Shown piece after piece: positions 559 to 37,150 of a stretch of DNA of 64,000 nt. This stretch comes from Salegentibacter mishustinae (GTDB lineage: Bacteria > Bacteroidota > Bacteroidia > Flavobacteriales > Flavobacteriaceae). Where the stretch lies: contig NZ_LLKN01000001.1 in the NCBI RefSeq assembly GCF_002900095.1, positions 496,001 through 560,000 on the forward strand, in the 5' to 3' direction. Below the pieces are notes generated by a model. That model did not search any database and was not told where the DNA came from. It saw nothing but the letters and a program-made list of their open reading frames with translations. The number at the start of each line of letters is the position of its first letter. Position 1 is the first letter of the stretch. A program made the position numbers and the translations under genes.

Positions 559-582
559 CAGCCCCTAGCCCCCAAAGGGAGA
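559..582. repeat. C-rich palindromic repeat at the cobA stop codon
   Basis: The segment reads cccctagcccccaaaggga on the plus strand. It folds as a short CCC/GGG hairpin and resembles the insert found inside thyA at 43429-43455. On the minus strand it encodes the last residues of CobA (SPFGG) and its TAG stop, so the repeat has set the C-terminus of that protein. Confidence 0.55.
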
Positions 583-1350
583 ATTTATAATTACTGATTC
601 TTGAATTGAATTTTCCAGAACCGCTTTAAGTTGTCCGCTTTCACGAACTACTTCGCCAATCACGATAATTGCCGGGGCGGTAAGTTGTTTTTCAGCTACT
701 ACTTTTTCTATACTTTTTATCATTCCAAAGCCTGACTTTTCATTATTGGTAGTTCCATTCTGAATAATTCCAACCGGAGTATTTTCTTTTCCGTAGTAGC
801 TAAAAATATCCACGATTTCAGGGAGTTTTGCCATTCCCATTAGAATCACTACCGTAGCCGTAGATTGTGCCGCGAGCCGAACATCTTCTGAAAGTTTCTT
901 TTGGGTGGTGGTTCCTGTAATTACCCAAAAACTCTCGGAAGTTCCTCGTTGGGTAAGCGGAATTCCAATATTTGCAGGAACTGCTATTGAAGACGTAATT
1001 CCTGAAACAACTGCAGTTTCCAAGCCTTTACTTTTGGCATAATTAATTTCTTCAGATCCTCTGCCGAAAATAAAAGGATCGCCTCCTTTTAACCGAACCA
1101 CGTGCCCTCTTTCCAAAGCATATTTCACAATAAGCTCGTTGATCTCATCTTGAGAATACCTATGCTTATCTTTTCGTTTTCCAACAAAAATATGCTCGGC
1201 TTGAGGCGCATATTCCAGTAATTCGCGGTTAATAAGCGCATCAAAAAGCACAACTTTGGCATCTTTTAAAGTATTTAATGCTTTAAGTGTTATCAATTCC
1301 GGGTCTCCGGGACCAGCGCCTACCACGCTTAGTTTTGGTGAATTATACAT
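565..1350 (-). CDS. cobA: Uroporphyrinogen-III C-methyltransferase (SUMT)
   Basis: This enzyme transfers two methyl groups from SAM to uroporphyrinogen III to give precorrin-2, the first step of the siroheme branch. The protein has the tetrapyrrole methylase fold, with VVGAGPGDPELIT near the N-terminus, VVRLKGGDPFIFGRG in the middle and GITSSIAVPANIGIPLT after it, all standard SUMT motifs. I place the start at ATG 1350, not at the ATG 27 bases upstream, because a strong Shine-Dalgarno sequence AAAGGAGGT sits 5 bases before it, which is rare in this window. This start overlaps the sulfite reductase stop by 8 bases, giving translational coupling. The length is 261 residues, normal for the family. 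The final residues derive from a palindromic repeat. Confidence 0.95.
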   Translation of the reverse strand: MYNSPKLSVVGAGPGDPELITLKALNTLKDAKVVLFDALINRELLEYAPQAEHIFVGKRKDKHRYSQDEINELIVKYALERGHVVRLKGGDPFIFGRGSEEINYAKSKGLETAVVSGITSSIAVPANIGIPLTQRGTSESFWVITGTTTQKKLSEDVRLAAQSTATVVILMGMAKLPEIVDIFSYYGKENTPVGIIQNGTTNNEKSGFGMIKSIEKVVAEKQLTAPAIIVIGEVVRESGQLKAVLENSIQESVIINSPFGG

Positions 1351-3436
1351 TTTGTACCTCCTTTGTTCTAAATGCATCTACCCTTTTTAGGAATAGTTGC
1401 GCGTCTTCTAAATATTTATTGGCAAAAGCTTCGGTTGGCTCTTGCTCGTTCATTTGATAAGCGAATTCTTTGAAGGAAGTCGATAATTCGATTTTACCGG
1501 TGTCTACAAACAACTCGTCAAACTGTGCAATTATTCCTGCTTGCGTATTGGTTTTCAAATCTTCGGCCAACAACAATGCTTTAGCCGAATTCACTATTGA
1601 AGTATAGGAATGATAAATACTATCTGCCCAGGCTTTTCTTTCCTGTGCACTTTTGGCATTATCTATTTTCTCTTCGCTTTCAAATAATAAGGTAGCGATA
1701 AGATCTATTACCACGCCGGCACACTCGCCCACTCCCACTGCTTTTATATAAGGTTTTTCGTGACCCCAATCCACAAATTCATTTTCTGTTAGGTTTGAGG
1801 TATCGGCCAAATCTTTTAGCAAATCGTAGAAATAAGTTTTTCCCTGGCGATCGTAATATTCGGCGAATTTCTCTTCGGAATTTGCTTTCGCTTCAAAATC
1901 GTTAAGTAACAATCGTAAAGCTTGCGGCCCGCGTTTACTGGGCACTTTTATCACTTTATCGGCAAAGCGGCCTTTTCCATTTCCCAGCGTTCCACCGCCA
2001 AGTAAAACCTGAAGCGCCGGTGCCACGGTTTTACCAACTTTTACCGACATTCCCTGGAAACCGATCTCGGCCATATTATGCTGCCCGCAGGCATTCATAC
2101 AACCGCTAATTTTTATGGTAATATCCTTCCCGTTTATAAATTGCGGATATTCTTCTTTTAAAACATCTTCCAGCACATCGGCAATTCCGGTACTACTGGC
2201 AATTCCAAGATTACAGGTATCTGTTCCCGGGCAGGCCGTAATATCTACGGTTTTATTATACCCGGTTTCGGCATAACCCAGCTTTTTTAATTCTGAATAG
2301 AAAAATGCTAAAAACTCTTCCCGAACGTGACGAATTAAAATATCCTGTCTTAAACTTAACCTAATCTCATTTCCGGCGTATTCTTTCACCAAATCGGCTA
2401 GTTTCCTGGCGCCACCTGTATAAAAATCACCTAACGGAACCCGAATTCCGATAGCAAATAATCCTTCCTGTTTCTGCGGAATTACATTCGTGCTTTTCCA
2501 GGTTTCAAAATCCTTTTGATCTTCAATTTCTACTGAAGGTACCTCAACTTCCTGAAGCGGTGGTGCTACTTCAAACTTTTCAACCTCAAATTCCGGATGA
2601 TTTTTAGAAAGTGCGGTGCTTTGTTCAGAAACCAATTCCATAAAGGCATCTTTACCAATATCTTTTATTAGGAATTTCATCCTGGCTTTTAAGCGTTTTG
2701 CACGTTCGCCGTGACGATCAAAAACCCGCAAAACACCTTCTATTAGCGGCAGTAATTCTTCCGCAGGAAGAAAATCGTACAGTTCATCGGCGTGTCTAGG
2801 TTGCGAACCGAGTCCGCCGCCTAGCATTACTTTAAATCCGCGCTTTCCATCTTTTAATTTTGCGATAAAGCCAAGATCATGAATATAACTTAGCGCCGTA
2901 TCATCATCCGACGAAGAAAAGGATATCTTGAACTTTCTTCCCATTTCCTGGCAAATAGGATTTCGAAGAAAAAATTGGAAAGTTCCGTGTGCATAAGGAG
3001 AGACATCAAAAGGTTCATTTTTATCGATTCCAGCCGTTGGGGACGCAGTTACATTTCGCACCGTGTTTCCGCAGGCTTCACGCAAAGTAATATCATCCTT
3101 TTCCAGTTGCGCCCAAAGCTCTGGTGTTCTATCTAAACTCACGTGGTGAATTTGGATATCCTGGCGGGTGGTGATATGCAAACGCCCTTTAGAATATTCA
3201 TCTGAAACATCAGCAATTCTATGCAGTTGTTCTGAGGTTACTTTTCCAAATGGCAGTTTTATACGAACCATTTGTACACCAGCCTGTCTTTGGCCGTAAA
3301 CCCCACGTGCTAAACGCAGACTTCGGAATTTTTCTTCATCGGCTTTTCCCTCTCGAAACAACCTGATCTTCTTTTCCAGATCCAGGATATCTTTCTCTAC
3401 AACTGGGTTTTCAATTTCGGTTCTAAAACTTTGCAT
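1343..3436 (-). CDS. Assimilatory nitrite/sulfite reductase hemoprotein with C-terminal helical extension
   Basis: This siroheme-[4Fe-4S] reductase converts sulfite to sulfide in the cytoplasm. Two ferredoxin-like half-domains and two siroheme domains occupy about residues 30-560. The cluster ligands are visible as CPGTDTC (C402, C408) and SGCMNAC (C446, C450). The last 130 or so residues form an extra helical region beyond the usual reductase core; flavobacterial homologues are often named HEPN-domain proteins, and I cannot confirm that fold by eye. No flavoprotein subunit is adjacent, so the electron donor (ferredoxin or NADPH reductase) is encoded elsewhere. Sulfite rather than nitrite as substrate is inferred from the cysH-cobA-siroheme context. 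Expression is probably gated by the Cys/Met leader at 3542-3601. Confidence 0.92.
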   Translation of the reverse strand: MQSFRTEIENPVVEKDILDLEKKIRLFREGKADEEKFRSLRLARGVYGQRQAGVQMVRIKLPFGKVTSEQLHRIADVSDEYSKGRLHITTRQDIQIHHVSLDRTPELWAQLEKDDITLREACGNTVRNVTASPTAGIDKNEPFDVSPYAHGTFQFFLRNPICQEMGRKFKISFSSSDDDTALSYIHDLGFIAKLKDGKRGFKVMLGGGLGSQPRHADELYDFLPAEELLPLIEGVLRVFDRHGERAKRLKARMKFLIKDIGKDAFMELVSEQSTALSKNHPEFEVEKFEVAPPLQEVEVPSVEIEDQKDFETWKSTNVIPQKQEGLFAIGIRVPLGDFYTGGARKLADLVKEYAGNEIRLSLRQDILIRHVREEFLAFFYSELKKLGYAETGYNKTVDITACPGTDTCNLGIASSTGIADVLEDVLKEEYPQFINGKDITIKISGCMNACGQHNMAEIGFQGMSVKVGKTVAPALQVLLGGGTLGNGKGRFADKVIKVPSKRGPQALRLLLNDFEAKANSEEKFAEYYDRQGKTYFYDLLKDLADTSNLTENEFVDWGHEKPYIKAVGVGECAGVVIDLIATLLFESEEKIDNAKSAQERKAWADSIYHSYTSIVNSAKALLLAEDLKTNTQAGIIAQFDELFVDTGKIELSTSFKEFAYQMNEQEPTEAFANKYLEDAQLFLKRVDAFRTKEVQNV

Positions 3437-3478
3437 TGCTAATAATTTTTAAAAATGGCGCCTAAAACAGGCATTAAT

Positions 3479-3518
3479 AAAAAAGGTCCTTTTTGAGTTT
3501 TCACTTAAAAGGACCTTT
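3479..3518 (-). terminator. Intrinsic terminator acting as attenuator before sulfite reductase
   Basis: On the minus strand a perfect 12-bp stem (AAAAGGACCTTT at 3507-3518 on plus, its complement at 3482-3493) with a 13-base loop is followed by a run of six T. It lies after the Cys/Met leader ORF and before the reductase start at 3436. The alternative antiterminator pairs 3539-3549 (end of the leader ORF) with 3501-3511 (loop and inner stem): 10 of 11 positions pair. Confidence 0.8.
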
Positions 3519-3541
3519 ATAATTTTTATAAAAAGATACTC

Positions 3542-3601
3542 TTAGGTGACAGAATCACACATACAACGGCACATCATAATATTTAAATTTTGCTTCTTCA
3601 T
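3542..3601 (-). CDS. Cys/Met-rich leader peptide (19 aa), attenuation of sulfite reductase operon
   Basis: A 19-codon ORF starts at ATG 3601, only 10 bases after the cysH stop, and ends with TAA at 3542-3544. Residues 9-15 are MMCRCMC, so six of seven central codons are Cys or Met. The terminator at 3479-3518 follows. The bases of the last two sense codons and the stop (3539-3549) are complementary to the inner part of the terminator hairpin. A ribosome stalled at the first Cys or Met codons would leave that strand free to form the antiterminator; a ribosome reaching the stop would mask it and let the terminator form. This predicts induction of sulfite reductase, cobA and siroheme synthase when charged tRNA-Cys or tRNA-Met is low. 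Translation of the ORF is inferred. Confidence 0.72.
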   Translation of the reverse strand: MKKQNLNIMMCRCMCDSVT

Positions 3602-3611
3602 TTCTTCAAAA

Positions 3612-4241
3612 CTAAGCGTGGAGGCCACATTCGCGGTTTTCCAAAACCTTGGTAGGATCAAAATATTTAAACTCATTTGGCAGGGCATTTTCTTCTAAAT
3701 AAGCATCCAGTTTTTCATCACTCCAATGGTAAAACGGACTCACTTTTAATATTCCGTCTTTACTATAGCTTAAAATATCTATGCTATTTCTAAAACTGGT
3801 TTGGCCCTTTCTAAGATTTGTAAACCAAACATCAGGGTTTTGCTGCTCCATGGCTCGTAGGAAAGGTTCCAGTTTTACCTGCCGGGTAAACTCTTCGTGC
3901 TGCGGATTATTGATATCGGGAATGCCTCCAAAAAGCGCATCACGATAAGCCGCCGTTTCCTTTGGCGTGTATAGCTTTACATTCAGTTTTAATTGATCAA
4001 TTACCTGCTTTGCGTGCCTGTAAGTTTGAGGTGTATTATAACCGGTATCACACCAAATTACTTTCATTACCGGGTCTATATCTGAAACTGCGTGCAGAAT
4101 TGCAGCCTCATAAGGTCTAAAATTGGTAGTAACCACCGGTCTTGCCGCATTAGAGACTACCCATTGCACGATCTCAGCCGGGGTTATTCCCTTAAACTGC
4201 TGGTTGAGAATCTTTAATTCTTTTTCGCTGTACCGTTTCAT
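3612..4241 (-). CDS. cysH: Phosphoadenylyl-sulfate (PAPS) reductase
   Basis: This thioredoxin-dependent reductase makes sulfite from activated sulfate. At 209 residues it is a short member of the family. It has the C-terminal catalytic motif RECGLHA and only one other cysteine (in VIWCDTGYNTPQTY), so it lacks the paired cysteines that bind an Fe-S cluster in APS reductases. By family rules that predicts PAPS as substrate and a need for an APS kinase. No ATP sulfurylase (cysD, cysN) or kinase gene is next to it in this window. It sits between DUF2061 and the Cys/Met leader of the reductase. Confidence 0.93.
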   Translation of the reverse strand: MKRYSEKELKILNQQFKGITPAEIVQWVVSNAARPVVTTNFRPYEAAILHAVSDIDPVMKVIWCDTGYNTPQTYRHAKQVIDQLKLNVKLYTPKETAAYRDALFGGIPDINNPQHEEFTRQVKLEPFLRAMEQQNPDVWFTNLRKGQTSFRNSIDILSYSKDGILKVSPFYHWSDEKLDAYLEENALPNEFKYFDPTKVLENRECGLHA

Positions 4242-4308: not shown

Positions 4309-4560
4309 TTATTCTTTTCCGAAACTGATCATATTCCATAGTCGCTCGTGCCCAAAGTAAAGGATCATTTTAGTCACTAATTCTACAGATCCAATGGCAA
4401 GTGCAGTTTCAATCTCTCCTGTAAGCAACCAGGAAATCGCAATGGTATCTACAGTTCCCACAATTCTCCAGCTTACCGTTTTCAATATACTTCGTAAAGG
4501 TTTCTCTGAAGTAGTGTCCTTTTTATAAGTGCTTTTAGATTTTACCTGATCCAGTATCAT
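4309..4560 (-). CDS. DUF2061 small membrane protein
   Basis: This 83-residue protein matches the DUF2061 pattern: an SILKTVSWRIVGTVDT segment, one or two hydrophobic segments (about residues 35-70), and KMILYFGHERLW near the C-terminus. The family is often found beside or fused to sulfate-activation genes, and here it lies between an Rrf2 regulator and cysH, in the same orientation. A membrane role in sulfate assimilation is plausible from context but has no assigned biochemistry. Confidence 0.85.
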   Translation of the reverse strand: MILDQVKSKSTYKKDTTSEKPLRSILKTVSWRIVGTVDTIAISWLLTGEIETALAIGSVELVTKMILYFGHERLWNMISFGKE

Positions 4561-4688: not shown

Positions 4689-5105
4689 TTATTTCTTAGC
4701 AGAAATATCGGCTAAGGTATTATCGCCCAGTACTTTTAAGGTGCTATCCCTAACCTGTATCATTAAACTATGAACCGAACAGGTTTCCTCGCTGGGACAA
4801 TCATCACACTTTTCGTAATAATTAAGGCTAACGCAAGGCACCATAGCGATAGGACCTTCCAGTACCCGAATTACCGCCGTCATTTGAATTGCTTCGGGTT
4901 CTTTAATTAGATAATAACCACCGCCTTTTCCTTTTTTAGATCCTAAAAATCCCGATTTTCGTAATTCCAGAAGAATGCTTTCGAGGAATTTTTGCGAGAT
5001 ATTTTCACTTTTTGAGATCTCTGAAGTTTGCACGGGTTTTCTATCTTCCCTTTTTGCTATGAATGCGAGGGCTTTAATTCCGTATTTAGTCTTTTTTGAA
5101 AGCAT
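4689..5105 (-). CDS. Rrf2-family transcriptional regulator with four clustered cysteines
   Basis: The start is placed at ATG 5105, because the protein then begins MLSKKTKYGIKALAF, the usual Rrf2 N-terminus, giving 138 residues; the longer frame to 5198 has an atypical 31-residue prefix. A winged helix covers about residues 1-80, with SEISKSENISQKFLESIL as recognition region and KKGKGGGYYL as wing. Near the C-terminus there is a C-x8-C-x2-C-x5-C cluster (from PCVSLNYYEKC onward), which could bind an Fe-S cluster as in IscR or NsrR, although the spacing differs. Its position between metZ and cysH suggests a CymR-like or redox regulator of sulfur genes; this role is inferred. Confidence 0.9.
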   Translation of the reverse strand: MLSKKTKYGIKALAFIAKREDRKPVQTSEISKSENISQKFLESILLELRKSGFLGSKKGKGGGYYLIKEPEAIQMTAVIRVLEGPIAMVPCVSLNYYEKCDDCPSEETCSVHSLMIQVRDSTLKVLGDNTLADISAKK

Positions 5106-5200
5106 ATGGCGAATATACTTAAATATTGACTTTTTCGCATTTATTATTGATTTCTCTACGGAAAGATCAAAAAGTCCGATTCCTGCTGAAATTACCATAA

Positions 5201-6364
5201 CTAAATTGAATTTAAAGCCTGTTTTAAATCATCTATTACATCATCTACATGCTCCAAACCTACTGAAACTCTTACCAAACCGGGTTTTATGCCAACTTCC
5301 AGCCTATCTTCCTCACTTAATTTACTGTGCGTAGTAGAAGCAGGATGGGTTACAATACTTCTAGTGTCTCCCAGGTTTGCCGATCTTGAACAAAGCTTAA
5401 TCGCGTCTATAAATTTTCTTCCCGCTTCAACTCCTCCTTTAATCTCAAAGGCGACGATATTTCCGCCCTTTTTCATCTGCTTTTTCGCAATTTCGTATTG
5501 TGGATGCGATTTGAGAAAAGGGTATTTTACATTTTCAGCATTGGCTTCGGTCTCTAAAAATTCGGCTACTTTTTCGGCATTTTCGCAATGCTTGTCCAGC
5601 CTTACCGAAAGTGTTTCCAAGCTTTTAGAAAGCACCCAGGCATTAAACGGCGACAAAGCCGGTCCCGTATTCCTTGAGAACAGGTAGATTTCCCGAATTA
5701 AATCGGCATTCCCAACTGTCACACCGCCCAGAACACGGCCCTGCCCGTCTATTAATTTTGTAGCCGAATGTATTACCAAATGCGCGCCGAATTTTATAGG
5801 GTTTTGCAGCCAGGGCGTGGCAAAACAATTATCAATTATTAAAATAAGATTATGCTTTTTCGCAATTTCCCCCAGCAATTCTAAATCCAGAACATCTACA
5901 CCGGGATTTGTAGGTGTTTCGGCAAAAATAATTTTTGTTTCAGGCTTTATTAAACTTTCAATTTTATCAACTTCATCCACATTAAAATAGGAATGAGAAA
6001 TATTCCATTTGGGAAAAAACTTGGTAAACAAACTATGCGTAGAACCAAAAACCGACCTCGCCGAGATTATGTGATCTCCACTATTAAGCAACGCAGCAAG
6101 GCTTGAGAACACGGCACTCATTCCCGTTGCAAAAGAAAATCCGGCCTCTGCCCCTTCCATTTTTGCGATTTTCTCGGTAAATTCTGAAGTATTAGGATTA
6201 GTAAATCTGCTATAAATATTACGTTCTTTTTCTTCAGAAAAGGAAGCCCGCATATCTTCGGCATCATCAAAAACATAACTGGAGGTTAGGTACAGGGGCG
6301 TAGAATGCTCCTGGAATTGCGTGCGCTCGTTTTGCGTTCTTATGGCTTCGGTTTCGAAATGCAT
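5201..6364 (-). CDS. metZ: Trans-sulfuration PLP enzyme, O-succinyl/O-acetylhomoserine sulfhydrylase (MetZ-like)
   Basis: This Cys/Met metabolism PLP enzyme has 387 residues. The PLP-binding lysine lies in HSATKLIDGQGRVLGG; the GQGR version of this motif is typical of O-succinylhomoserine sulfhydrylase (MetZ) rather than cystathionine lyase or synthase. Because the operon encodes a homoserine O-acetyltransferase, the natural substrate here may be O-acetylhomoserine with sulfide or cysteine. It is the second sulfhydrylase-type enzyme in the operon after MetY, so the two may differ in sulfur donor. The gap to homoserine dehydrogenase is 19 bases. Confidence 0.88.
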   Translation of the reverse strand: MHFETEAIRTQNERTQFQEHSTPLYLTSSYVFDDAEDMRASFSEEKERNIYSRFTNPNTSEFTEKIAKMEGAEAGFSFATGMSAVFSSLAALLNSGDHIISARSVFGSTHSLFTKFFPKWNISHSYFNVDEVDKIESLIKPETKIIFAETPTNPGVDVLDLELLGEIAKKHNLILIIDNCFATPWLQNPIKFGAHLVIHSATKLIDGQGRVLGGVTVGNADLIREIYLFSRNTGPALSPFNAWVLSKSLETLSVRLDKHCENAEKVAEFLETEANAENVKYPFLKSHPQYEIAKKQMKKGGNIVAFEIKGGVEAGRKFIDAIKLCSRSANLGDTRSIVTHPASTTHSKLSEEDRLEVGIKPGLVRVSVGLEHVDDVIDDLKQALNSI

Positions 6365-6383: not shown

Positions 6384-7457
6384 TTAATTAAGTCTTTGTG
6401 ATAATTTAAGCACGTCGCTTGCCACGCCTCGAGCAGTAACCGCTGCTCCTGCCCCAGCTCCCTGGATCACCAGCGGTTGGTCTCCGTAAGATTCGGTATA
6501 AATTTCAAAAATGTTATCGGCGCCTTTAATTTGGCCCAAAGCGGTATTTTTGGGTTCAGAAATAAGTTTGGCTTCCAGGGTGGCTTTTTCTACCTCAATT
6601 TCTCCAATATATCTTAATACGTGCCCCTGATCTTGCTGTTTTTTATGCTGATTAAAAATCTCATCCAGTTCACTAATTCTTTTCTGAAATTCTTCTGCGG
6701 AAGTCTCGCCGTTTAATTTCTCGAGAATTAAAGATTGAATTTTCACCTCCTGGAATTCTTTATCTAGCTGAAGCTCGCGTGCCAGGATCAATAATTTTCT
6801 ACCCACATCGTTTCCGGAAAGGTCTTCCCGGGCATCGGGCTCGGTGTAACCCAGGTTTCCGGCTTTCTTCAAAACATCAGAAAACTTCTCTTTATTTTCA
6901 GAAAAAGTATTGAAAATAAAACTCAAAGAACCGGAGAATACCCCTCGAATTTTAGTGACTTTTTCTCCTGCCTGGTGCAAACCCCTTACCGTTTGTACAA
7001 TTGGTAAACCTGCGCCTACATTTGTTTCATAGAAAAAATGCTTCCCGTGATATTCTAATTCCTTACGTATTTTCTTATAAAAATCTGCCGATAGAGTATT
7101 AGCCACTTTATTGGCCGCTACCAGGTTAAAGCCGTTTTGGATTAAGCGGATATAGATCTCTACAAATTCTTTACTCGCCGTCGCATCTATAGCAATAAGA
7201 TGTTCAAGATCCTGCTCTTTAGTAAAATCGAGAATGTCTTCCAGTTTATATTCTTTAGCCGATTTTTTGAAATCTTTTTCCCAGTTTTCAGTAATTCCTT
7301 CAGCAATAAGTAGCGCTTTGGTGGAATTAGCGATTACCGGAACATTGACCGAAACTCCCGAATTCTCTTCCCACTGCTTTTTTGCAGTTAATAATTGCTC
7401 GATTAAAGTCTTGCCAACGTTTCCTATTCCAAATAAGATGATATTTACTTTTTTCAT
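6384..7457 (-). CDS. hom: Homoserine dehydrogenase, stand-alone
   Basis: The enzyme reduces aspartate semialdehyde to homoserine, the backbone for Met and Thr. The 357-residue protein has an N-terminal Rossmann motif FGIGNVG, then GAGLPIVQTVRGL, GVFSGSLSFIFNTF and GYTEPDAREDLSGNDVGRKL, which resemble the homoserine dehydrogenase half of ThrA/MetL. It has no aspartokinase half and no ACT domain, so feedback control by threonine is unlikely. It is placed between metX and metZ with short gaps, so supply of homoserine is coupled to Met demand. Confidence 0.95.
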   Translation of the reverse strand: MKKVNIILFGIGNVGKTLIEQLLTAKKQWEENSGVSVNVPVIANSTKALLIAEGITENWEKDFKKSAKEYKLEDILDFTKEQDLEHLIAIDATASKEFVEIYIRLIQNGFNLVAANKVANTLSADFYKKIRKELEYHGKHFFYETNVGAGLPIVQTVRGLHQAGEKVTKIRGVFSGSLSFIFNTFSENKEKFSDVLKKAGNLGYTEPDAREDLSGNDVGRKLLILARELQLDKEFQEVKIQSLILEKLNGETSAEEFQKRISELDEIFNQHKKQQDQGHVLRYIGEIEVEKATLEAKLISEPKNTALGQIKGADNIFEIYTESYGDQPLVIQGAGAGAAVTARGVASDVLKLSQRLN

Positions 7458-7468
7458 TTAAATATATT

Positions 7469-8533
7469 CTAGATCCCGACCCGGGAATTTGAAACAGCCC
7501 AATTTCCATTGGCCTGAGTATTAAAAATTTCAGTTTCCAGTTTCGCTCTGGTTTCAGCTTCTTTATTAATGCTACCGAATACTGGTTTTAAAAACCTGGC
7601 CAGTTGTGCAGCTTCAATTAAAAAAGCATCGTGCCCGTGAATTGATCGTATTTCGTGAATACTCACATTATTTTTTACCAGCGAAAGGTTTACATAAGTA
7701 TCCCAATTTTCATCGGCCAGAAAAAACCAATCGGAATTCACCGTAACAATGTGGATGTTTCCCTCTATTTTTTTTGCCGTTTCCAGGTAGTTTTCGCTGC
7801 CTTTGCTAATATCTATAGTGGTTAGCAAATGATTCATCAACTTATAAGAAGCGAGCTGAAAACGCTCTTCCAGTTTATCTCCGTGATATTGCAACCAGCC
7901 TTCTACTTTATAACAAGGTTTTACTTCTTCTTTTGTACGATTAAATTTCTTACTTAAAGATTGTGGCGTGCGGTAGAAAGTCATCGCGTGCATTCTCGCA
8001 TCTTTTACCGGCTCTTTGGAATTATTTAGAATTTGCTCCTGTACTTTACAATTTGCCAACACCCAATCGGTTGCTTTATAATCTGTTGCGATGGGCATAA
8101 TATTTTCAGCTAAATCAGGTTTAAGAGCCGCGAGTTCCCAGGCTAAAGCTCCACCTATGGAACCTCCAATTATTGCAAAAAGCTTTTCAATTTTTAATTG
8201 CTGAAGTGCCAGTGCCTGAATTTTAGCTATATCTGCAAGCGTAAATTCTTTATAATTATCAATTAAATGTTCCTTTTTTCCGTTAAAACCATTCCCCGGA
8301 ATATTAAAAGCCAGGATGCTGAATTTTTCGGTATCTATACATTTTCCGGGGCCAACAATATTAGTCCACCAACCTAATTTTCCTGTAATTTGGGAATTCC
8401 CGGTAAGCGCGTGATTTATTAAAACCACCGGTGCAGTATCCGGATTTTGCCCAAATTGCTGAAAGCTTAAATAGATATCCTGAACCGTTCCCGCAGAATT
8501 TTCAAAATCTTTTAAACAGAGTTCCTGTAGCAT
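7469..8533 (-). CDS. metX: Homoserine O-acetyltransferase
   Basis: This alpha/beta-hydrolase fold enzyme activates homoserine with acetyl-CoA. The 354-residue protein has NHALTGNSQ, the nucleophile elbow GGSIGG and the catalytic His in SIHGHDAFLIE near the C-terminus. It lies 11 bases upstream of homoserine dehydrogenase and downstream of metY. An 11-bp stem-loop is found in the 84-base gap to metY. Acetyl rather than succinyl transfer is inferred from similarity to MetX; MetX-fold enzymes can differ in acyl donor. Confidence 0.93.
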   Translation of the reverse strand: MLQELCLKDFENSAGTVQDIYLSFQQFGQNPDTAPVVLINHALTGNSQITGKLGWWTNIVGPGKCIDTEKFSILAFNIPGNGFNGKKEHLIDNYKEFTLADIAKIQALALQQLKIEKLFAIIGGSIGGALAWELAALKPDLAENIMPIATDYKATDWVLANCKVQEQILNNSKEPVKDARMHAMTFYRTPQSLSKKFNRTKEEVKPCYKVEGWLQYHGDKLEERFQLASYKLMNHLLTTIDISKGSENYLETAKKIEGNIHIVTVNSDWFFLADENWDTYVNLSLVKNNVSIHEIRSIHGHDAFLIEAAQLARFLKPVFGSINKEAETRAKLETEIFNTQANGNWAVSNSRVGI

Positions 8534-8617: not shown

Positions 8618-9910
8618 TTATACCAATGCTTTTTTATGAATTTTGGCAAAAGCCTCTTTTAGATCTGTTTTTAGATCTTCCACATCTTCAAGGCCTACCG
8701 AAAGGCGAATAAGATCTTGTGTAACTCCGGTAGTAGCTTGTTGCTTTTCGTCCAGCTGCTGATGCGTAGTGCTCGCAGGGTGAATAATCAGGGATTTCGT
8801 ATCACCAATATTAGCAACGAGTGAGAAAAGTTTTGTTTCATCGGCTACAACTTTAGCCGATTCAAAGCCACCTTCAACTCCAAAAGTTACTACGCCACTT
8901 TGGCCTTTTGGGAGATATTCTTTGGCAAGTTTATTATACTTACTGCTTTCTAAACCGGGATAATTAACCCATTTTACTTCTTCCTGCTGTTCTAGCCATT
9001 TCGCAAGATTTAAGGCATTTTCGCTATGCTGCTTTATCCTGATGTCTAGAGTTTCTAAACCTTGTAAGATTTGAAATGCGTTATAAGGACTTAGAGCCGC
9101 ACCGTGATCACGAAGCCCTTCAATTCTAACCTTGGCAATAAATGCTGCTTCTTTTAAAGCTTCGTGGTAAACAAGTCCGTGGTAGCCCGGTGAAGGTTCT
9201 GTGAATTCAGGGAACTTGCCATTCGCCCAGTTAAAATTCCCGGCATCTATGATGGCTCCACCAAGCGAAGTACCATTTCCGCTTATATATTTAGTAAGGG
9301 ATTCAATAACAATATCGGCGCCGTGCTCTATAGGTTTTAGCAAAGAAGGTGTGGCAACGGTATTATCCACTATAAAAGGAACTTTAAGCGCATTTGCTTC
9401 GGCAGAAATTGCTTTTAGATCTAAGACGTCCAGCTTTGGATTTCCCAGCGATTCTACAAAAACTGCACGTGTATTTTCTTTTGCAGCCTTTTTAAAGTTT
9501 TCAGGATATTCGGGGTCTACAAAAGTAGTGGTGATTCCAAATCTAGGTAGCGTTACACTTAGCAAATTGTAAGTTCCACCGTATAAACTACTGGAAGCAA
9601 CAATATGGTCTCCGGCTTTTAATAGCGTGAGAAGCGTAGTATTAATGGCCGCAGTTCCTGATGCGGTTACTACCGCAGCAATTCCACCTTCCAGTGAAGC
9701 AAGGCGTTGTTCCAAAATATCGTTAGTAGGATTATTCAAACGAGTGTAGATATAACCAGGTTCTGCAAGTGAGAAAAGATTGGCAGCGTGATCTGAATTA
9801 TTAAAAACATAAGAAGTTGTTTGGTAAATAGGTACCGCTCTTGTTCCTCCGTTAGCTTTAGTATCGTGACCGGCGTGTAATGCGTTTGTTGAAAATTTTT
9901 GAGTACTCAT
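8618..9910 (-). CDS. metY: O-acetylhomoserine sulfhydrylase
   Basis: This PLP enzyme joins sulfide to O-acetylhomoserine to give homocysteine, linking sulfate reduction to Met. At 430 residues it has the longer MetY length. The PLP lysine is in ESLTKYISGNGTSLGG, and the N-terminus HAGHDTKANGGTRAVPIYQT is typical of the family. It is the first structural gene after the two Met-rich leader peptides, so it would be the most directly attenuated gene. The ATG at 9910 begins a canonical MSTQKFSTNALHAGHD start. Confidence 0.96.
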   Translation of the reverse strand: MSTQKFSTNALHAGHDTKANGGTRAVPIYQTTSYVFNNSDHAANLFSLAEPGYIYTRLNNPTNDILEQRLASLEGGIAAVVTASGTAAINTTLLTLLKAGDHIVASSSLYGGTYNLLSVTLPRFGITTTFVDPEYPENFKKAAKENTRAVFVESLGNPKLDVLDLKAISAEANALKVPFIVDNTVATPSLLKPIEHGADIVIESLTKYISGNGTSLGGAIIDAGNFNWANGKFPEFTEPSPGYHGLVYHEALKEAAFIAKVRIEGLRDHGAALSPYNAFQILQGLETLDIRIKQHSENALNLAKWLEQQEEVKWVNYPGLESSKYNKLAKEYLPKGQSGVVTFGVEGGFESAKVVADETKLFSLVANIGDTKSLIIHPASTTHQQLDEKQQATTGVTQDLIRLSVGLEDVEDLKTDLKEAFAKIHKKALV

Positions 9911-10066: not shown

Positions 10067-10165
10067 TTAAATCCGGTTTTGGCAATAGCGTTTCATGTGT
10101 CGCATAGACATACACATCATCATAGTGCGCATCATCATGTTATTTATTGCCTTAATATTTTTCAT
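10067..10165 (-). CDS. Methionine-rich leader peptide 1 (32 aa), attenuation of the met operon
   Basis: A 32-codon ORF starts at ATG 10165 (MKNIKAINN) after an A/G-rich stretch and stops at TAA 10067-10069. Residues 10-21 read MMMRTMMMCMSM, and ten residues in all are Met. It lies about 155 bases before metY and directly before the terminator at 10003-10044. Bases 10079-10089 (codons 26-29) are complementary to the terminator loop and inner stem at 10022-10032. A ribosome stalled on the Met clusters would expose this antiterminator strand; one that finishes the peptide would cover it. An internal ATG at 10138 is an alternative start that keeps the Met block. Low charged tRNA-Met should therefore raise transcription of metY and the genes beyond. 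Confidence 0.8.
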   Translation of the reverse strand: MKNIKAINNMMMRTMMMCMSMRHMKRYCQNRI

Positions 10166-10348: not shown

Positions 10349-10420
10349 TTAAGCAATAGAGCGCGCTGCGGAAGTTCTCCACATCATCATACGCATCATA
10401 TTGCAAATTACCTGGTACAT
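10349..10420 (-). CDS. Methionine-rich leader peptide 2 (23 aa), first Met attenuator of the operon
   Basis: A 23-codon ORF starts at ATG 10420 about 14 bases after the predicted transcription start and stops at TAA 10349-10351. Residues 8-13 read MMRMMM. It is followed within 22 bases by the strong terminator at 10295-10327. Codons 18-19 carry the GCAGCG that can pair with the terminator left arm. The ORF is unrelated in sequence to leader 1 outside the Met block, so it is not a recent duplicate. Together the two would act in series before metY. Confidence 0.75.
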   Translation of the reverse strand: MYQVICNMMRMMMWRTSAARSIA

Positions 10421-10439: not shown

Positions 10440-10472
10440 CAAAGATAAGGGCAGAATTTTTTAATATCCAAA
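10440..10472 (-). promoter_or_regulatory. Bacteroidetes-type promoter of the met/sulfur operon
   Basis: On the minus strand the -7 element TATCTTTG (10440-10447) matches TAnnTTTG. A TTTG (10469-10472) lies 21 bases upstream. The predicted start near 10434 leaves a very short 5' region before leader peptide 2. Confidence 0.7.
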
Positions 10473-10716: not shown

Positions 10717-10730
10717 TAACCGAATTATTT

Positions 10731-10836
10731 AAAGGGAAGGATTTGACTGATTGCAACCCTTTTATACTTTTAAAAAGTATAAGAAAAATGCTAAAGCAGT
10801 ATCACTACTTCCTTAGCTCCCCGTCAAATTCAACCC
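10731..10836 (+). ncRNA. SAM-II-like riboswitch upstream of metK
   Basis: Stem P1 is AAAGGG (10731-10736) with CCCTTT (10757-10762). The loop contains GATTTGAC and ATTGCAA in the order known for SAM-II, and a later GCTAAA (10790-10795) matches the conserved 3' element. ACTG (10746-10749) can form the pseudoknot with CAGT (10797-10800). An extra 9-bp stem (about 10762-10783) lies between P1 and GCTAAA, so this is a variant form. Downstream, 10823-10836 is complementary to 10734-10747 (12 bp around a 2x2 internal loop), a good anti-aptamer strand. SAM binding would free that strand; how it then lowers metK expression is not visible, as there is no clear terminator before the ATG. Confidence 0.68.
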
Positions 10837-10864: not shown

Positions 10865-12121
10865 ATGGCTTATTTATTTACTTCAGAAAGTGTATCTGAA
10901 GGACACCCAGATAAAATCGCAGATCAGATTAGCGATACTTTACTAGATAATTTCCTTGCTTTTGATGAAAATTCTAAAGTTGCCTGTGAAACATTGGTTA
11001 CTACAGGCCAGGTGGTTCTTGCCGGCGAAGTTAGAAGCGACACTTATATTGATGTACAAAATATTGCCCGCGAAGTAATAAACGAGATTGGTTATACCAA
11101 AGGAGCTTATAAGTTTAGTGGTGATTCTTGTGGCGTGATCTCTTTAATTCACGAACAATCCCAGGAAATTTACCAGGGTGTAGATCGGGAAAACAAAGAA
11201 GAACAGGGCGCCGGAGACCAGGGTATGATGTTTGGTTATGCCACCAACGAGACCGAAAATTATATGCCCCTGGCACTAGATATTTCTCACAAAATCCTTA
11301 TTGAATTGGCAAAATTAAGGCGTGAAGGTAAGGATATCCCCTATTTACGTCCCGATTCTAAAAGCCAGGTGACCATAGAATATAGTGACGATAATGTTCC
11401 GCAAAAAATTGTGGCCATTGTGGTTTCTACCCAGCATGATGAGTTTGATGAGAATGATGATGAAATGCTGAAAAAGATCAAGAAAGACATTCTTGAAATT
11501 CTTATTCCACGAGTAAAGGAACAGTTACCTGAATATGTTCAGAAACTATTTAACGATGATATTACGTATCATATAAACCCAACCGGAAAGTTTGTTATTG
11601 GTGGGCCTCACGGCGATGCCGGACTTACAGGAAGAAAAATTATCGTAGACACCTACGGTGGTAAAGGTGCTCACGGTGGTGGTGCATTCTCAGGAAAAGA
11701 CCCCAGTAAAGTTGATAGATCTGCCGCTTACGCATCGCGGCACGTTGCCAAAAACCTTGTTGCAGCAGGCCTTGCAGATGAAGTTTTAGTGCAGGTTTCT
11801 TATGCGATTGGGGTGGTGGAACCTACTTCTATTTCAGTAGAAACTTATGGGACCGCAAAAGTAGATATGAAGGATGGGGAAATTGCTAAAAAAGTAGCCC
11901 AAATATTTGATATGCGCCCCTGGGCCATTGAAGACAGGTTGAAACTGAGAAATCCTATCTATCGGGAAACTGCAGCCTACGGCCATATGGGCAAAGAACC
12001 AAGAACGGTAACTAAAATCTTTAAAAGTCCTTATTCCGGAGAGGTAAAAAAAGAAGTGGAATTGTTTACCTGGGAAAAACTGGATTATGTAGATAAAGTG
12101 AAGGAAGCTTTTAAGCTTTAA
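10865..12121 (+). CDS. metK: S-adenosylmethionine synthetase
   Basis: This enzyme makes SAM from Met and ATP. The 418-residue protein has [20 protein letters not shown] at the N-terminus, the ATP-binding [12 protein letters not shown] (about residue 117) and the P-loop-like [19 protein letters not shown] (about 268). It is divergent from the met operon and controlled by its own promoter and riboswitch. A strong terminator follows at 12144-12179. Confidence 0.98.
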
Positions 12122-34648: not shown

Positions 34649-37150
34649 TTAGAAGTGAAAACCAAAGGAAGCTGTTACCGCAAAAGACCGCGACTCTGGA
34701 ACATCGAAATAGTTTCCTCTAAAATGGGCTTCAATACTTAGAAATTTAAGAATATTTCCTACTCCTATACTATACTCGTAATATGGTGCTCTACTTGGTG
34801 CCCGCAGCGGAATTCCAGAAGCATTTAAAGCTTTATTTTCTTCTGAAATTTCTCCCCAAACCGCTCTGGCGCCTATTAATTCCCGTAAATTTAATTCTCG
34901 TAAAAGCGGAATTCGGGCAAATAATCGTCCATTGAAATTATGATCAAAATGCGCTGAAACATAAGTATCGGTTACAAATTCATAGAAATTAAGGACGGGA
35001 AATGAATTATACATAGCGAAATAAGTTTGGTTTCCCGGCACCACGTTTAAGAGTCCCAATGGAACTTCGCCAAAAGTTTTACCAGCTTCCAAACTGGCAT
35101 TCGCTCTTCCAAATCCGCCAATTCTAAGCGGCTGATCGTAAAAAAATTGCACTTTCTTATAATTGAAATCGCTATTAAAAACGTTTTTTAAACCCAAGGT
35201 GTAATTAAAGAAAAAAGTAGGAAACTCCTCTTCATTCACTACATTTCGTTCAACTCCAAATCCAGAAGTTTGCCTACCGGGAGTATAAGTTAAAATGGTA
35301 GAAATTTCGGTTTGCTTTATGGTTGAAGCAGTTTCGGTTTGAGCTTCATTAGTATAATAATCTAGACTAAATGCCGGGGAGGCCGAACTTAACTCGCGAT
35401 ATGAAACGCCAAAACGGACATTAAAATTATACCAGGGCTCAATTTCGAGATTTACGGTACTTAAATCTATATTACTCAATTTATCGTTATCGCCCACGCT
35501 TACCAAGCCAGATGATGCTAAGCTACGCCCTAAAACATCTGTAGTATTAGTGGTTAAACTTGCGCCCAGTTGTTCTATATCGCGTCTTTTTCCGCCAGAA
35601 ATAATTAAACGTGACCTGGAATCTAAAAGCCATTTCCCCGAAATTCCATATTTAAATTTATCGTCTTTAAAACCATAGGCTAAATACCCTTCAATTCGCC
35701 AGGGATCGTGTTGCCCAAAATAAGTTCTACCGCCCACACGGGTTCTAAATCCTTCTACTTGATTATAGTCAAATAGCGAATACACAGGGCCAAAATCCCA
35801 ACCGTCAAATTCTACATAACCAGATTCTGCGATGGTGGCGATATCGTAAATTCTATTAAAGGCGGGAACCCTGGTTAAGCTATCCAGCATCACATAAACA
35901 TCTTCCTCTTCTCTATTGAGCTCTTCCAAACGATTTTCTTTCCAAAACTGTTTATCCCGTATATAAACTTCTTCGTTGAATTTATAAGCTCGCTTATCGT
36001 AAAAATCTTCTGCTTTCTTTATGTTGAATTGATATTCATCAAAAACCCGAGTACGTTTTGCGTAAACTCCTTTTGAATTTTCTTTCTTGGTTAAGGAGAA
36101 ATTAGCCTGGAAATAATCTTTGGAAATTAAAAAAACAGAATCGTTAAGCACTTCAAATTCCTGTTCTATATAAAGTTCTTTTACCCAGTTTATATTGGTA
36201 TCACGGGAAGCTTCAAGATTAATTTTCTTTACCGCCCAGGTAGTATCGTTTACCCAAAAATCTCCTTTAAAAGTTAATTCATTCTCGCGACGCGGATAAT
36301 AAATAATATTGTAGCACCATTTATCTTCTATATACGTACTATCGCTTAATACATAATTGTAATTGTTGATGCCTGTTGTAGAAAGCGGACTTACAAAGCT
36401 CTTGTCAAAAACCTTGATATAATTGTTGTAGACATTATATTCATCATACACATCTTTTACCGCAGCGATTAGGTTTTGATTTTGCTCAAATCCAGAATTC
36501 TTATTTCCTAGAAGATCTTCGCGTTTTTCATTTTCAATATTATCTCCGTAAACCATAGAAACCGATTCATTAATGAAAACAGGTAGAATAGTTTTTCCCG
36601 AAATTCTATTGGTATCAGAATAGTCAAAAATAAATTCCATACCATTAAAAATCGGGTTTTTCACTACAGAACTATCAATCCCGTCTAAATCGAATTCCAG
36701 TTTTTCGTATTTTTTGTACTGATATTGTTTAAAGGCAGAAACGCCATTATCGCGTTTATTTTCCCATATCTTCTTTAGAATATCTATAGCGGGATTGTTC
36801 TTTTTTGAAGTTTTACCCCTAACAATTTTAACCTCACCTAGACTGGAAGTCTCTTCCTGTAATTCAATTTCAAGAGATAGATTGGTTTTTTGCTGAAGCG
36901 GGATTATTTCCGTTTTATAACCGATAAAAGAAACTTTTAGTTCGGTATGGTTATTTTCACTTTGTAAATAGAACTTCCCGTTTTCCCCCGAAGTGGTTCC
37001 TTCCGAAGAATTATTAAAGATCACATTTACAAATGGAAGCGCTTCGCCGTTTTGGTCTTTAACCACACCGCCAACTTTGGTTTGTGCCATAAGCATGGTA
37101 CAGCACATTAATAAGAATAGGGAAAGAAAATTTGCTTTCGTCATCTTCAT
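34649..37150 (-). CDS. DUF5686 outer-membrane protein with carboxypeptidase-like regulatory domain
   Basis: This 833-residue protein starts with a Sec signal ending in MLMAQT. A CarboxypepD_reg-like beta-sandwich follows (residues about 24-110, VGGVVKDQNGEALPFVNVIF). A large DUF5686 region then contains many aromatic beta strands and ends in SFGFHF, a typical outer-membrane barrel C-terminus. Such proteins are thought to be surface-associated in Bacteroidota; the function is unknown. It is preceded on its strand by pdhB and a strong terminator. Confidence 0.9.
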   Translation of the reverse strand: MKMTKANFLSLFLLMCCTMLMAQTKVGGVVKDQNGEALPFVNVIFNNSSEGTTSGENGKFYLQSENNHTELKVSFIGYKTEIIPLQQKTNLSLEIELQEETSSLGEVKIVRGKTSKKNNPAIDILKKIWENKRDNGVSAFKQYQYKKYEKLEFDLDGIDSSVVKNPIFNGMEFIFDYSDTNRISGKTILPVFINESVSMVYGDNIENEKREDLLGNKNSGFEQNQNLIAAVKDVYDEYNVYNNYIKVFDKSFVSPLSTTGINNYNYVLSDSTYIEDKWCYNIIYYPRRENELTFKGDFWVNDTTWAVKKINLEASRDTNINWVKELYIEQEFEVLNDSVFLISKDYFQANFSLTKKENSKGVYAKRTRVFDEYQFNIKKAEDFYDKRAYKFNEEVYIRDKQFWKENRLEELNREEEDVYVMLDSLTRVPAFNRIYDIATIAESGYVEFDGWDFGPVYSLFDYNQVEGFRTRVGGRTYFGQHDPWRIEGYLAYGFKDDKFKYGISGKWLLDSRSRLIISGGKRRDIEQLGASLTTNTTDVLGRSLASSGLVSVGDNDKLSNIDLSTVNLEIEPWYNFNVRFGVSYRELSSASPAFSLDYYTNEAQTETASTIKQTEISTILTYTPGRQTSGFGVERNVVNEEEFPTFFFNYTLGLKNVFNSDFNYKKVQFFYDQPLRIGGFGRANASLEAGKTFGEVPLGLLNVVPGNQTYFAMYNSFPVLNFYEFVTDTYVSAHFDHNFNGRLFARIPLLRELNLRELIGARAVWGEISEENKALNASGIPLRAPSRAPYYEYSIGVGNILKFLSIEAHFRGNYFDVPESRSFAVTASFGFHF

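Follow-up and report, generated by a model that had tools for sequence, protein, structure and literature searches.

A predicted ribosome-mediated Cys/Met attenuator inside the met/cys operon of Salegentibacter mishustinae, upstream of a putative sulfite reductase gene

In trp/his-type attenuators of enterobacteria, a leader ORF carries the regulatory codons, and the antiterminator and the terminator share one strand. An attenuator that combines Cys codons with a terminator has been predicted before cysS in Rhodobacterales, where it was named the uORFC-8-2 motif (PMC8632094, accessible text), and this is a closer precedent for the locus described here than the poly-Cys leaders of mycobacteria. 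In Actinobacteria, Cys leader peptides precede cys and cbs operons, and the accessible part of that report found no terminator (PMC1262725). Mycobacteria possess poly-Cys leaderless ORFs, one of them a candidate before nirA (PMC4633059, accessible text), and the Cys leaders of M. smegmatis are termed translation attenuation in the accessible portions of two reports (PMC13236596, PMC9031893). Transcript maps of Flavobacterium psychrophilum and B. thetaiotaomicron contain, as far as their accessible texts describe, short ORFs and structured leaders that were read as leader-peptide attenuation (PMC9723704, PMC7366714), and the accessible text of the former already suggests this mechanism for flavobacteria generally (PMC9723704).

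The window analysed here, a stretch of 64,000 nucleotides from S. mishustinae, carries on its minus strand a met/cys operon whose genes, through the siroheme gene, probably form one transcript. At the operon head lie two leaders, Met leader 1 (10349-10420; peptide MYQVICNMMRMMMWRTSAARSIA, then stop) and Met(/Cys) leader 2 (10067-10165; peptide MKNIKAINNMMMRTMMMCMSMRHMKRYCQNRI, then stop). They are followed on the same strand by an O-acetylhomoserine/O-acetylserine sulfhydrylase-like gene (8618-9910), a hydrolase-fold gene that occupies the metX position (7469-8533), a homoserine dehydrogenase gene (6384-7457), a gene for a second Cys/Met-metabolism PLP enzyme (5201-6364), an Rrf2 regulator gene (4689-5198), a DUF2061 gene (4309-4560) and cysH, encoding a (phospho)adenylyl-sulfate reductase (3612-4241; Pfam PF01507). 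Between cysH and the predicted gated gene, a NIR_SIR gene (1343-3436, minus strand; Pfam PF01077/PF03460), sits the internal leader, and downstream follows a gene for uroporphyrinogen-III C-methyltransferase of siroheme synthesis (565-1377, minus strand; NCBIfam TIGR01469 above cut-off). From its context, the NIR_SIR gene probably encodes a sulfite rather than a nitrite reductase; no NCBIfam equivalog matched it at cut-off. Beyond the two NIR_SIR halves, the C-terminus of its product also matches a HEPN domain weakly (residues 583-661, E 6.7e-5). We take the mycobacterial nirA mentioned above to be a sulfite reductase gene.

The two leaders at the operon head occur in tandem, with terminators, in all 15 Salegentibacter genomes, including 3 that have no sulfite reductase. 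In each, the ORF end pairs with its own terminator (p 0.007 for Met leader 1; 0 of 1000 shuffles for leader 2). Leader 2 often contains Cys too (MMMCMCMRHMKCYCQNRM) and may, like the internal leader, sense both Met and Cys. A SAM-II riboswitch (10727-10804, plus strand; Rfam RF01726, E 5e-9) points away from the met operon and precedes metK (10865-12121). The window was also scanned with a Bacteroidota-type promoter consensus (TTTG-N-TANNTTTG); it gave 8 matches against 5.6 expected, a weak signal when taken alone, and one of them (10440-10472, minus strand) is placed immediately 5' of Met leader 1. Scans for sigma-70-type promoters were set aside, that consensus being unsuited to the phylum. 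Near the internal leader there was no promoter-like match, the nearest upstream ones on the same strand being at 9538-9566 (intragenic) and 10440-10472, so that this leader is most likely transcript-internal.

The internal leader ORF (3542-3601, minus strand) has 19 codons plus stop and encodes the peptide MKKQNLNIMMCRCMCDSVT. Its ATG is located 10 nt downstream of the cysH stop, and its regulatory codons, MMCRCMC, occupy positions 3557-3577. The ORF is followed by an intrinsic terminator (3479-3518) with a 12-bp stem and U6, in which the 5' arm AAAGGUCCUUUU (3518-3507) pairs with the 3' arm AAAAGGACCUUU (3493-3482) and the U tract covers 3484-3479. The end of the ORF with its stop codon, UCACCUAAGAG (3549-3539), constitutes the 5' strand of a putative antiterminator, and pairs at 10 of 11 positions, one of them G-U, with CUUUUAAGUGA (3511-3501), which comprises the terminator 5' arm and loop; an A/U-rich inner hairpin between the ORF stop and the terminator (3514-3536) forms part of the antiterminator arm. 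ORF, terminator and pairing were thus found as the first-pass annotation had described them, and its remark that the architecture equals that of Met leader 1 agrees with the pairing found there. Within the window, the fold of the whole region was unremarkable (z -1.66) and the pairing of ORF end and terminator, when compared with letter shuffles, was borderline (p 0.015 and 0.057 for segments of 12 and 19 nt, respectively); for this reason the case rests on comparison with relatives, which supports the pairing. At the gathering score, no Rfam 15 family matched the element (3400-3700), and the whole window gave only the SAM-II riboswitch at 10727-10804.

Stretches of 7 residues with at least five Cys/Met were absent from the short ORFs (10-30 codons, counted from the first ATG) of 30 simulated 64-kb windows. 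By the same rule the real window has three, namely Met leader 1 and two out-of-frame intragenic ORFs; the rule skips the internal leader, whose reading frame continues without a stop back into cysH, so that the first in-frame ATG falls within that gene. Neither intragenic ORF was accepted as a leader: the one beginning MCMMNIMSTT... at 36391-36453 lies inside a coding gene, and the one at 11394-11471 within metK.

In order to follow the element among relatives, we used the sulfite reductase protein as a query against 249 family genomes, of which 134 had a match, and against GTDB contigs, from which 80 loci were kept. Reductase matches were present in 12 of 15 genomes of Salegentibacter, 6 of 6 of the genus of G100, 8 of 16 of that of G111 and 23 of 24 of that of G298, the Christiangramia group. 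We applied a strict rule that demanded, directly 5' of the gene, a leader with an ATG start and a length of about 10 residues or more, then a terminator with at least five T's running. By this rule, leader and terminator stood directly before the reductase in 43 of the 49 reductase-bearing genomes of these four genera, Salegentibacter and its relatives. At locus L113 a leader is present whose aligned start codon is not ATG (TTG, or an ATG further in, would have to serve), at L128 the U tract is broken, and at L133 the stop codon has moved and the antiterminator looks weak by eye; all three fail the strict rule. In the GTDB contigs, loci with the leader belonged to Salegentibacter (L032, L040), Gillisia (L038, L039) and Christiangramia/Gramella (L033-L037, L041).

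Two loci of the Salegentibacter group appear to be natural cases of a failing attenuator, and they too fail the strict rule: L120 retains the reductase with a shortened ORF and a broken U tract, and L116 retains it with an early in-frame stop in the leader. The sixth genome to fail the rule is G277 of the Gillisia group (L134, L135, L137), in which the reductase is interrupted and there is no leader, the adjacent cysH match being still full-length; among the failures of the strict rule, a stop within the matched reductase parts was reported for G277 only.

A model of the element matched all 12 reductase-bearing Salegentibacter genomes, from 11 of which it had been built, and none of the 3 genomes without reductase; each of the 12 had one site, and G252 had one extra weak match. 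The gene that precedes the leader varies, being cysH in the window and at L079 and cysN at L034 and L068 (order cysH-cysD-cysN), and since the leader precedes the reductase after either gene, the reductase is the likely target.

Terminators with a Cys/Met ORF were also sought in a wider scan of 214 upstream stretches, the 134 family matches plus the 80 GTDB loci, some species appearing twice. Outside the four genera, leaders were found at three Kordia loci (L068, L069, L079) and in one further genus (G079, L282). Most Flavobacteriaceae with this reductase have no leader: it was found in 4 of the 134 sampled genomes (G000, G100, G111, G079). G241, whose reductase shows 84% identity, has none either, its reductase starting about 31 nt after cysH. 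ORFs like MCSCMSGRLLCAR that precede the reductase in Tenacibaculum and Polaribacter were rejected, since by eye they read as a ferredoxin-like gene in a different frame.

A covariance model of the element, run over 299 genomes, returned five strong matches (E < 2e-7), none of them away from this site, and a further 24 elsewhere that were weak, from E 2.3e-4. Four of the weak loci (L176-L179) were examined as possible further leaders and not accepted; three resemble plain terminators at their match, and the fourth lies near a contig end with its matched part outside the inspected sequence. The exact antiterminator pattern, which misses variants including the window's own, occurred in 4 of 397 family genomes, in three of them at the leader (G100, G264, G298); the match in G052, put down to chance, falls inside what reads by eye as a coding gene. 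The pattern CAAAAGGA...GTCCTTTTG matched in 10 of 249 genomes. It recovered the G079 leader; the nine other matches were discarded, for no Cys/Met-rich ORF ends there.

The 60 leader loci yielded 48 distinct peptides; L116 and L133 were excluded from alignments and counts, L120 and L128 were included, and the compared sequences are related, so their counts are not independent events. A lack of conservation of the Cys run would, according to the first-pass annotation, have spoken against its proposal; Cys was present in all 48 distinct leaders, once in nine, twice in 23, three times in 13 and four times in three. This count is partly circular, because the leaders of three genera were chosen partly by Cys/Met content; the 23 leaders of the Christiangramia group, located by terminator and stop codon alone, all contained Cys (23/23). 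Cys made up 12.0% of leader residues compared to 0.54% in the window proteins (22-fold), random A/T-rich DNA being expected, by a hand estimate, to give more Cys than these proteins, about 3%; for Met the values were 14.1% and 2.0% (7-fold). An internal Met, besides the start, occurred in 48 of 48 leaders and the dipeptide MC in 45. Peptide cores were mostly MCM[CR] in the Christiangramia group, MCR..MC or similar in Salegentibacter, and CTCMCC or MCMCC in Kordia. Apart from the Cys/Met codons and the ORF end, the leader sequence drifts, with a weak excess of change at third codon positions compared to first and second ones, which is what one expects if the peptide matters through its codons.

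These compositions bear on what the leader would sense. The proposal of a Cys sensor stands in so far as every leader has Cys; pure Cys sensing does not agree with the nine leaders that have a single Cys, with the internal Met of all 48 or with the M-C core. A response mainly to Met-tRNA, as at the operon head, with the Cys codons secondary, would account for these same observations, for the slightly higher share of Met among leader residues and for the Met-rich leaders that head the operon throughout Salegentibacter. We consider it rather unlikely, since Cys is the more enriched of the two and missing from no leader, Cys occurs three times in the window leader and three or four times in two of the three from Kordia, both amino acids draw on sulfide, the product of the gated step, and two Met-rich leaders are already in place at the operon head. 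Sulfide feeds cysteine and, via O-acetylhomoserine sulfhydrylase, methionine. Given that the sulfide of the gated enzyme feeds both, dual Cys/Met sensing is the simplest reading of the M-C core, and the predicted sensed species are charged tRNA-Cys and, probably, tRNA-Met.

To study the pairing, the region that extends from the ORF end through the U tract was aligned; the 56 loci in the four genera gave 44 distinct sequences of it. The antiterminator helix was better than letter shuffles at p<=0.05 in 39 of the 44 sequences; in three of the five that failed (L121, L157, L164) the test had misplaced the terminator arm, which was later re-assigned without p-values. With its inner A/U hairpin, the antiterminator had 92.8% of cells paired compared to 35-64.1% when slid by 1-3 columns; the structure had been drawn from one of the aligned sequences, a choice that gives it an advantage over its slid versions. 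The inner hairpin by itself had 91.2% of cells paired, with AU:35/UA:6 at one pair. The antiterminator showed little both-side change, at 3 pairs (shuffled mean 2.9) and in 8 cells (4.0 in shuffles), since the stretch varies little among the four genera; the clearest covariation within them is ACUUA/UAAGU versus ACCUA/UAGGU in L163. For the terminator, 92.2% of cells were paired compared to at most 74.6% in slid versions, both-side changes occurred at 4 of 12 pairs, and the U tract was broken in L120 and L128.

Outside the four genera the alternative pairing is built from other letters. Two Kordia loci (L068, L079) pair the ORF end CAAAAGGA with UCCUUUUG, the third (L069) has a variant of it, and G079 (L282) pairs UUCAAAAGGA with UCCUUUUGAG; against shuffles, the p values were 0.027 (L068), 0.008 (L079) and 0.003 (L069), and 0 of 1000 shuffles equalled the pairing in L282. 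This bears on the notion of a structured RNA that senses a ligand or a protein and for which the ORF is incidental. Such an RNA could explain the strong nucleotide-level conservation of ORF end and terminator; we give it hardly any credence, because the element has no Rfam match, the frame stops within the antiterminator strand in the 44 aligned sequences with both TAA and TAG in use, and the Kordia and G079 versions have retained the Cys codons and not the letters. Nor do we favour a small functional peptide, for instance one that binds metal or sulfide through Cys/Met, with an ordinary terminator ending the upstream transcript. MC-rich cores such as MCMC do look like metal ligands. This reading is nonetheless highly improbable in view of the drift, by eye, in the remainder of the peptide, the frequent replacement of the second Cys by Arg (MCMR), the conservation of the ORF end as RNA able to pair with the terminator, and the absence of the element from the 3 Salegentibacter genomes without reductase.

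In simulated co-transcriptional folding, the medians were -12.7 kcal/mol with the ORF end free, -0.7 with it masked and -13.6 for the terminator alone. The position of the codons fits such masking by a ribosome. Half of the Cys codons (50/97) lie 13-21 nt before the antiterminator strand and 69 of 115 internal Met codons 14-24 nt before it; by plain count, at least one Cys codon lies 12-26 nt before it in 41 of the 44 sequences. A ribosome with a given codon in its A site extends some 12-13 nt further. With this spacing and this reach, a stalled ribosome would leave the strand free and a ribosome at the stop codon would cover it. A protecting 1:2 helix, in which the Cys/Met codons would pair with the ORF end, seemed appealing on visual inspection and was dropped, as it was better than shuffles (p<=0.05) in 2 of 44 sequences only. 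To our knowledge the 1:2 protecting hairpin is not universal among attenuators, so its lack here was not treated as defining.

The locus combines the parts of a trp-type attenuator, that is a short ORF with clustered codons for the products of the pathway, an intrinsic terminator, an antiterminator that excludes it and suitably positioned codons. We regard it as highly probable, from sequence comparison, that the element is a ribosome-mediated transcription attenuator inside the met/cys operon that gates the sulfite reductase and siroheme genes. The comparison supports the Cys/Met ORF, the terminator, the alternative helix that cannot coexist with it, the position of the codons and the association with the reductase. 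In the proposed mechanism, transcription from upstream would arrive at the leader ORF 3' of cysH (of cysN in some relatives), and the ORF is predicted to be translated. With plentiful Cys-tRNA, and probably Met-tRNA, the ribosome would reach the stop codon and cover the ORF end, the terminator would fold and transcription would end before the sulfite reductase gene. If Cys (or Met) were scarce, the ribosome would stall on UGY/AUG codons some 13-24 nt upstream, and the free ORF end would pair with the terminator 5' arm, so that no terminator would form and the sulfite reductase and siroheme genes would be transcribed. Termination, stalling, the amino acid sensed and the effect on expression are what we infer from these parts.

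The same parts could act at the level of translation, with leader translation controlling the access of ribosomes to the reductase start and the hairpin being no functional terminator. This has been described, in the accessible texts, for the Cys-rich leaders of M. smegmatis (PMC13236596, PMC9031893), and in some species the leader is indeed close upstream of the gene. It is very unlikely here, given a conserved hairpin with a U run and with alternative pairing in its 5' arm, and given that in one genus, where 21 of 23 loci were measured, the terminator 5' arm lies anywhere between 53 and 243 nt from the gene start, a variation which masking of a start site would hardly tolerate. In Christiangramia (L034-L037, L041 and others), CTGAA..TTTCAGCATCT-like repeats recur, by eye, between terminator and reductase, and the variable distance in this group is due to such intervening repeat-like stretches.

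Taking transcription attenuation as the preferred reading, we also consider, with slightly more doubt than belief, a wider one, in which three leader-peptide checkpoints (Met, Met/Cys and the internal Cys/Met) would act on one transcript, the internal one as an OR gate that opens the sulfide step if either amino acid is short, and in which, on three or more occasions in Flavobacteriaceae, such gates arose or were rebuilt with different letters in the antiterminator. The OR-gate part is suggested by the operon's own O-acetylhomoserine/O-acetylserine sulfhydrylase-like enzyme, which uses sulfide.

Compared with known systems, the element shares with uORFC-8-2 a predicted ribosome-mediated attenuation, Cys codons (tandem in uORFC-8-2) and an intrinsic terminator; uORFC-8-2 differs in having a cysteinyl-tRNA synthetase target, in belonging to Alphaproteobacteria and in carrying its Cys codons in the first stem, and the accessible text mentions no Met codons (PMC8632094). 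The flavobacterial element, in contrast, precedes a sulfite reductase gene, belongs to Bacteroidota, is operon-internal, mixes Cys and Met and has no supported 1:2 stem. With the actinobacterial and mycobacterial leaders it has in common Cys codons placed on sulfur-assimilation genes (PMC1262725, PMC4633059, accessible texts). The first-pass annotation had cited mycobacterial Cys-codon attenuators as precedent, which holds for the Cys-rich leaders but not for the mechanism: in the accessible parts of these reports, they act by translation attenuation (PMC13236596), without a terminator (PMC1262725), and with Cys runs near the stop and leaderless ORFs (PMC4633059). The flavobacterial ORF, by comparison, follows cysH or cysN, probably without a transcript start of its own, and a terminator is present. 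The F. psychrophilum and B. thetaiotaomicron cases, in their accessible texts, name neither a Cys leader nor an internal attenuator (PMC9723704, PMC7366714). In the literature covered, largely non-subscription and in the parts accessible without supplements, we found neither a Cys nor a Cys/Met attenuator reported for Bacteroidota, nor one with a terminator before a sulfite reductase gene, nor one that is operon-internal. The element would therefore not be the first Cys-codon attenuator; new are its lineage, target gene, internal position and mixed Cys/Met sensing.

Enterobacterial attenuators of the trp/his type differ in standing at operon heads, in usually having a 1:2 protecting hairpin and in sensing other amino acids. 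Beside them, the element would represent, for Bacteroidota, a cysteine(/methionine) attenuator that works through a terminator and whose anatomy is fully described by comparison. Its internal placement would gate the siroheme-dependent, sulfide-making step apart from the preceding ones and, together with the two Met-rich leaders at the operon head, would provide layered control, with the M-C codon pair serving, on dual sensing, as a compact sensor of two amino acids.
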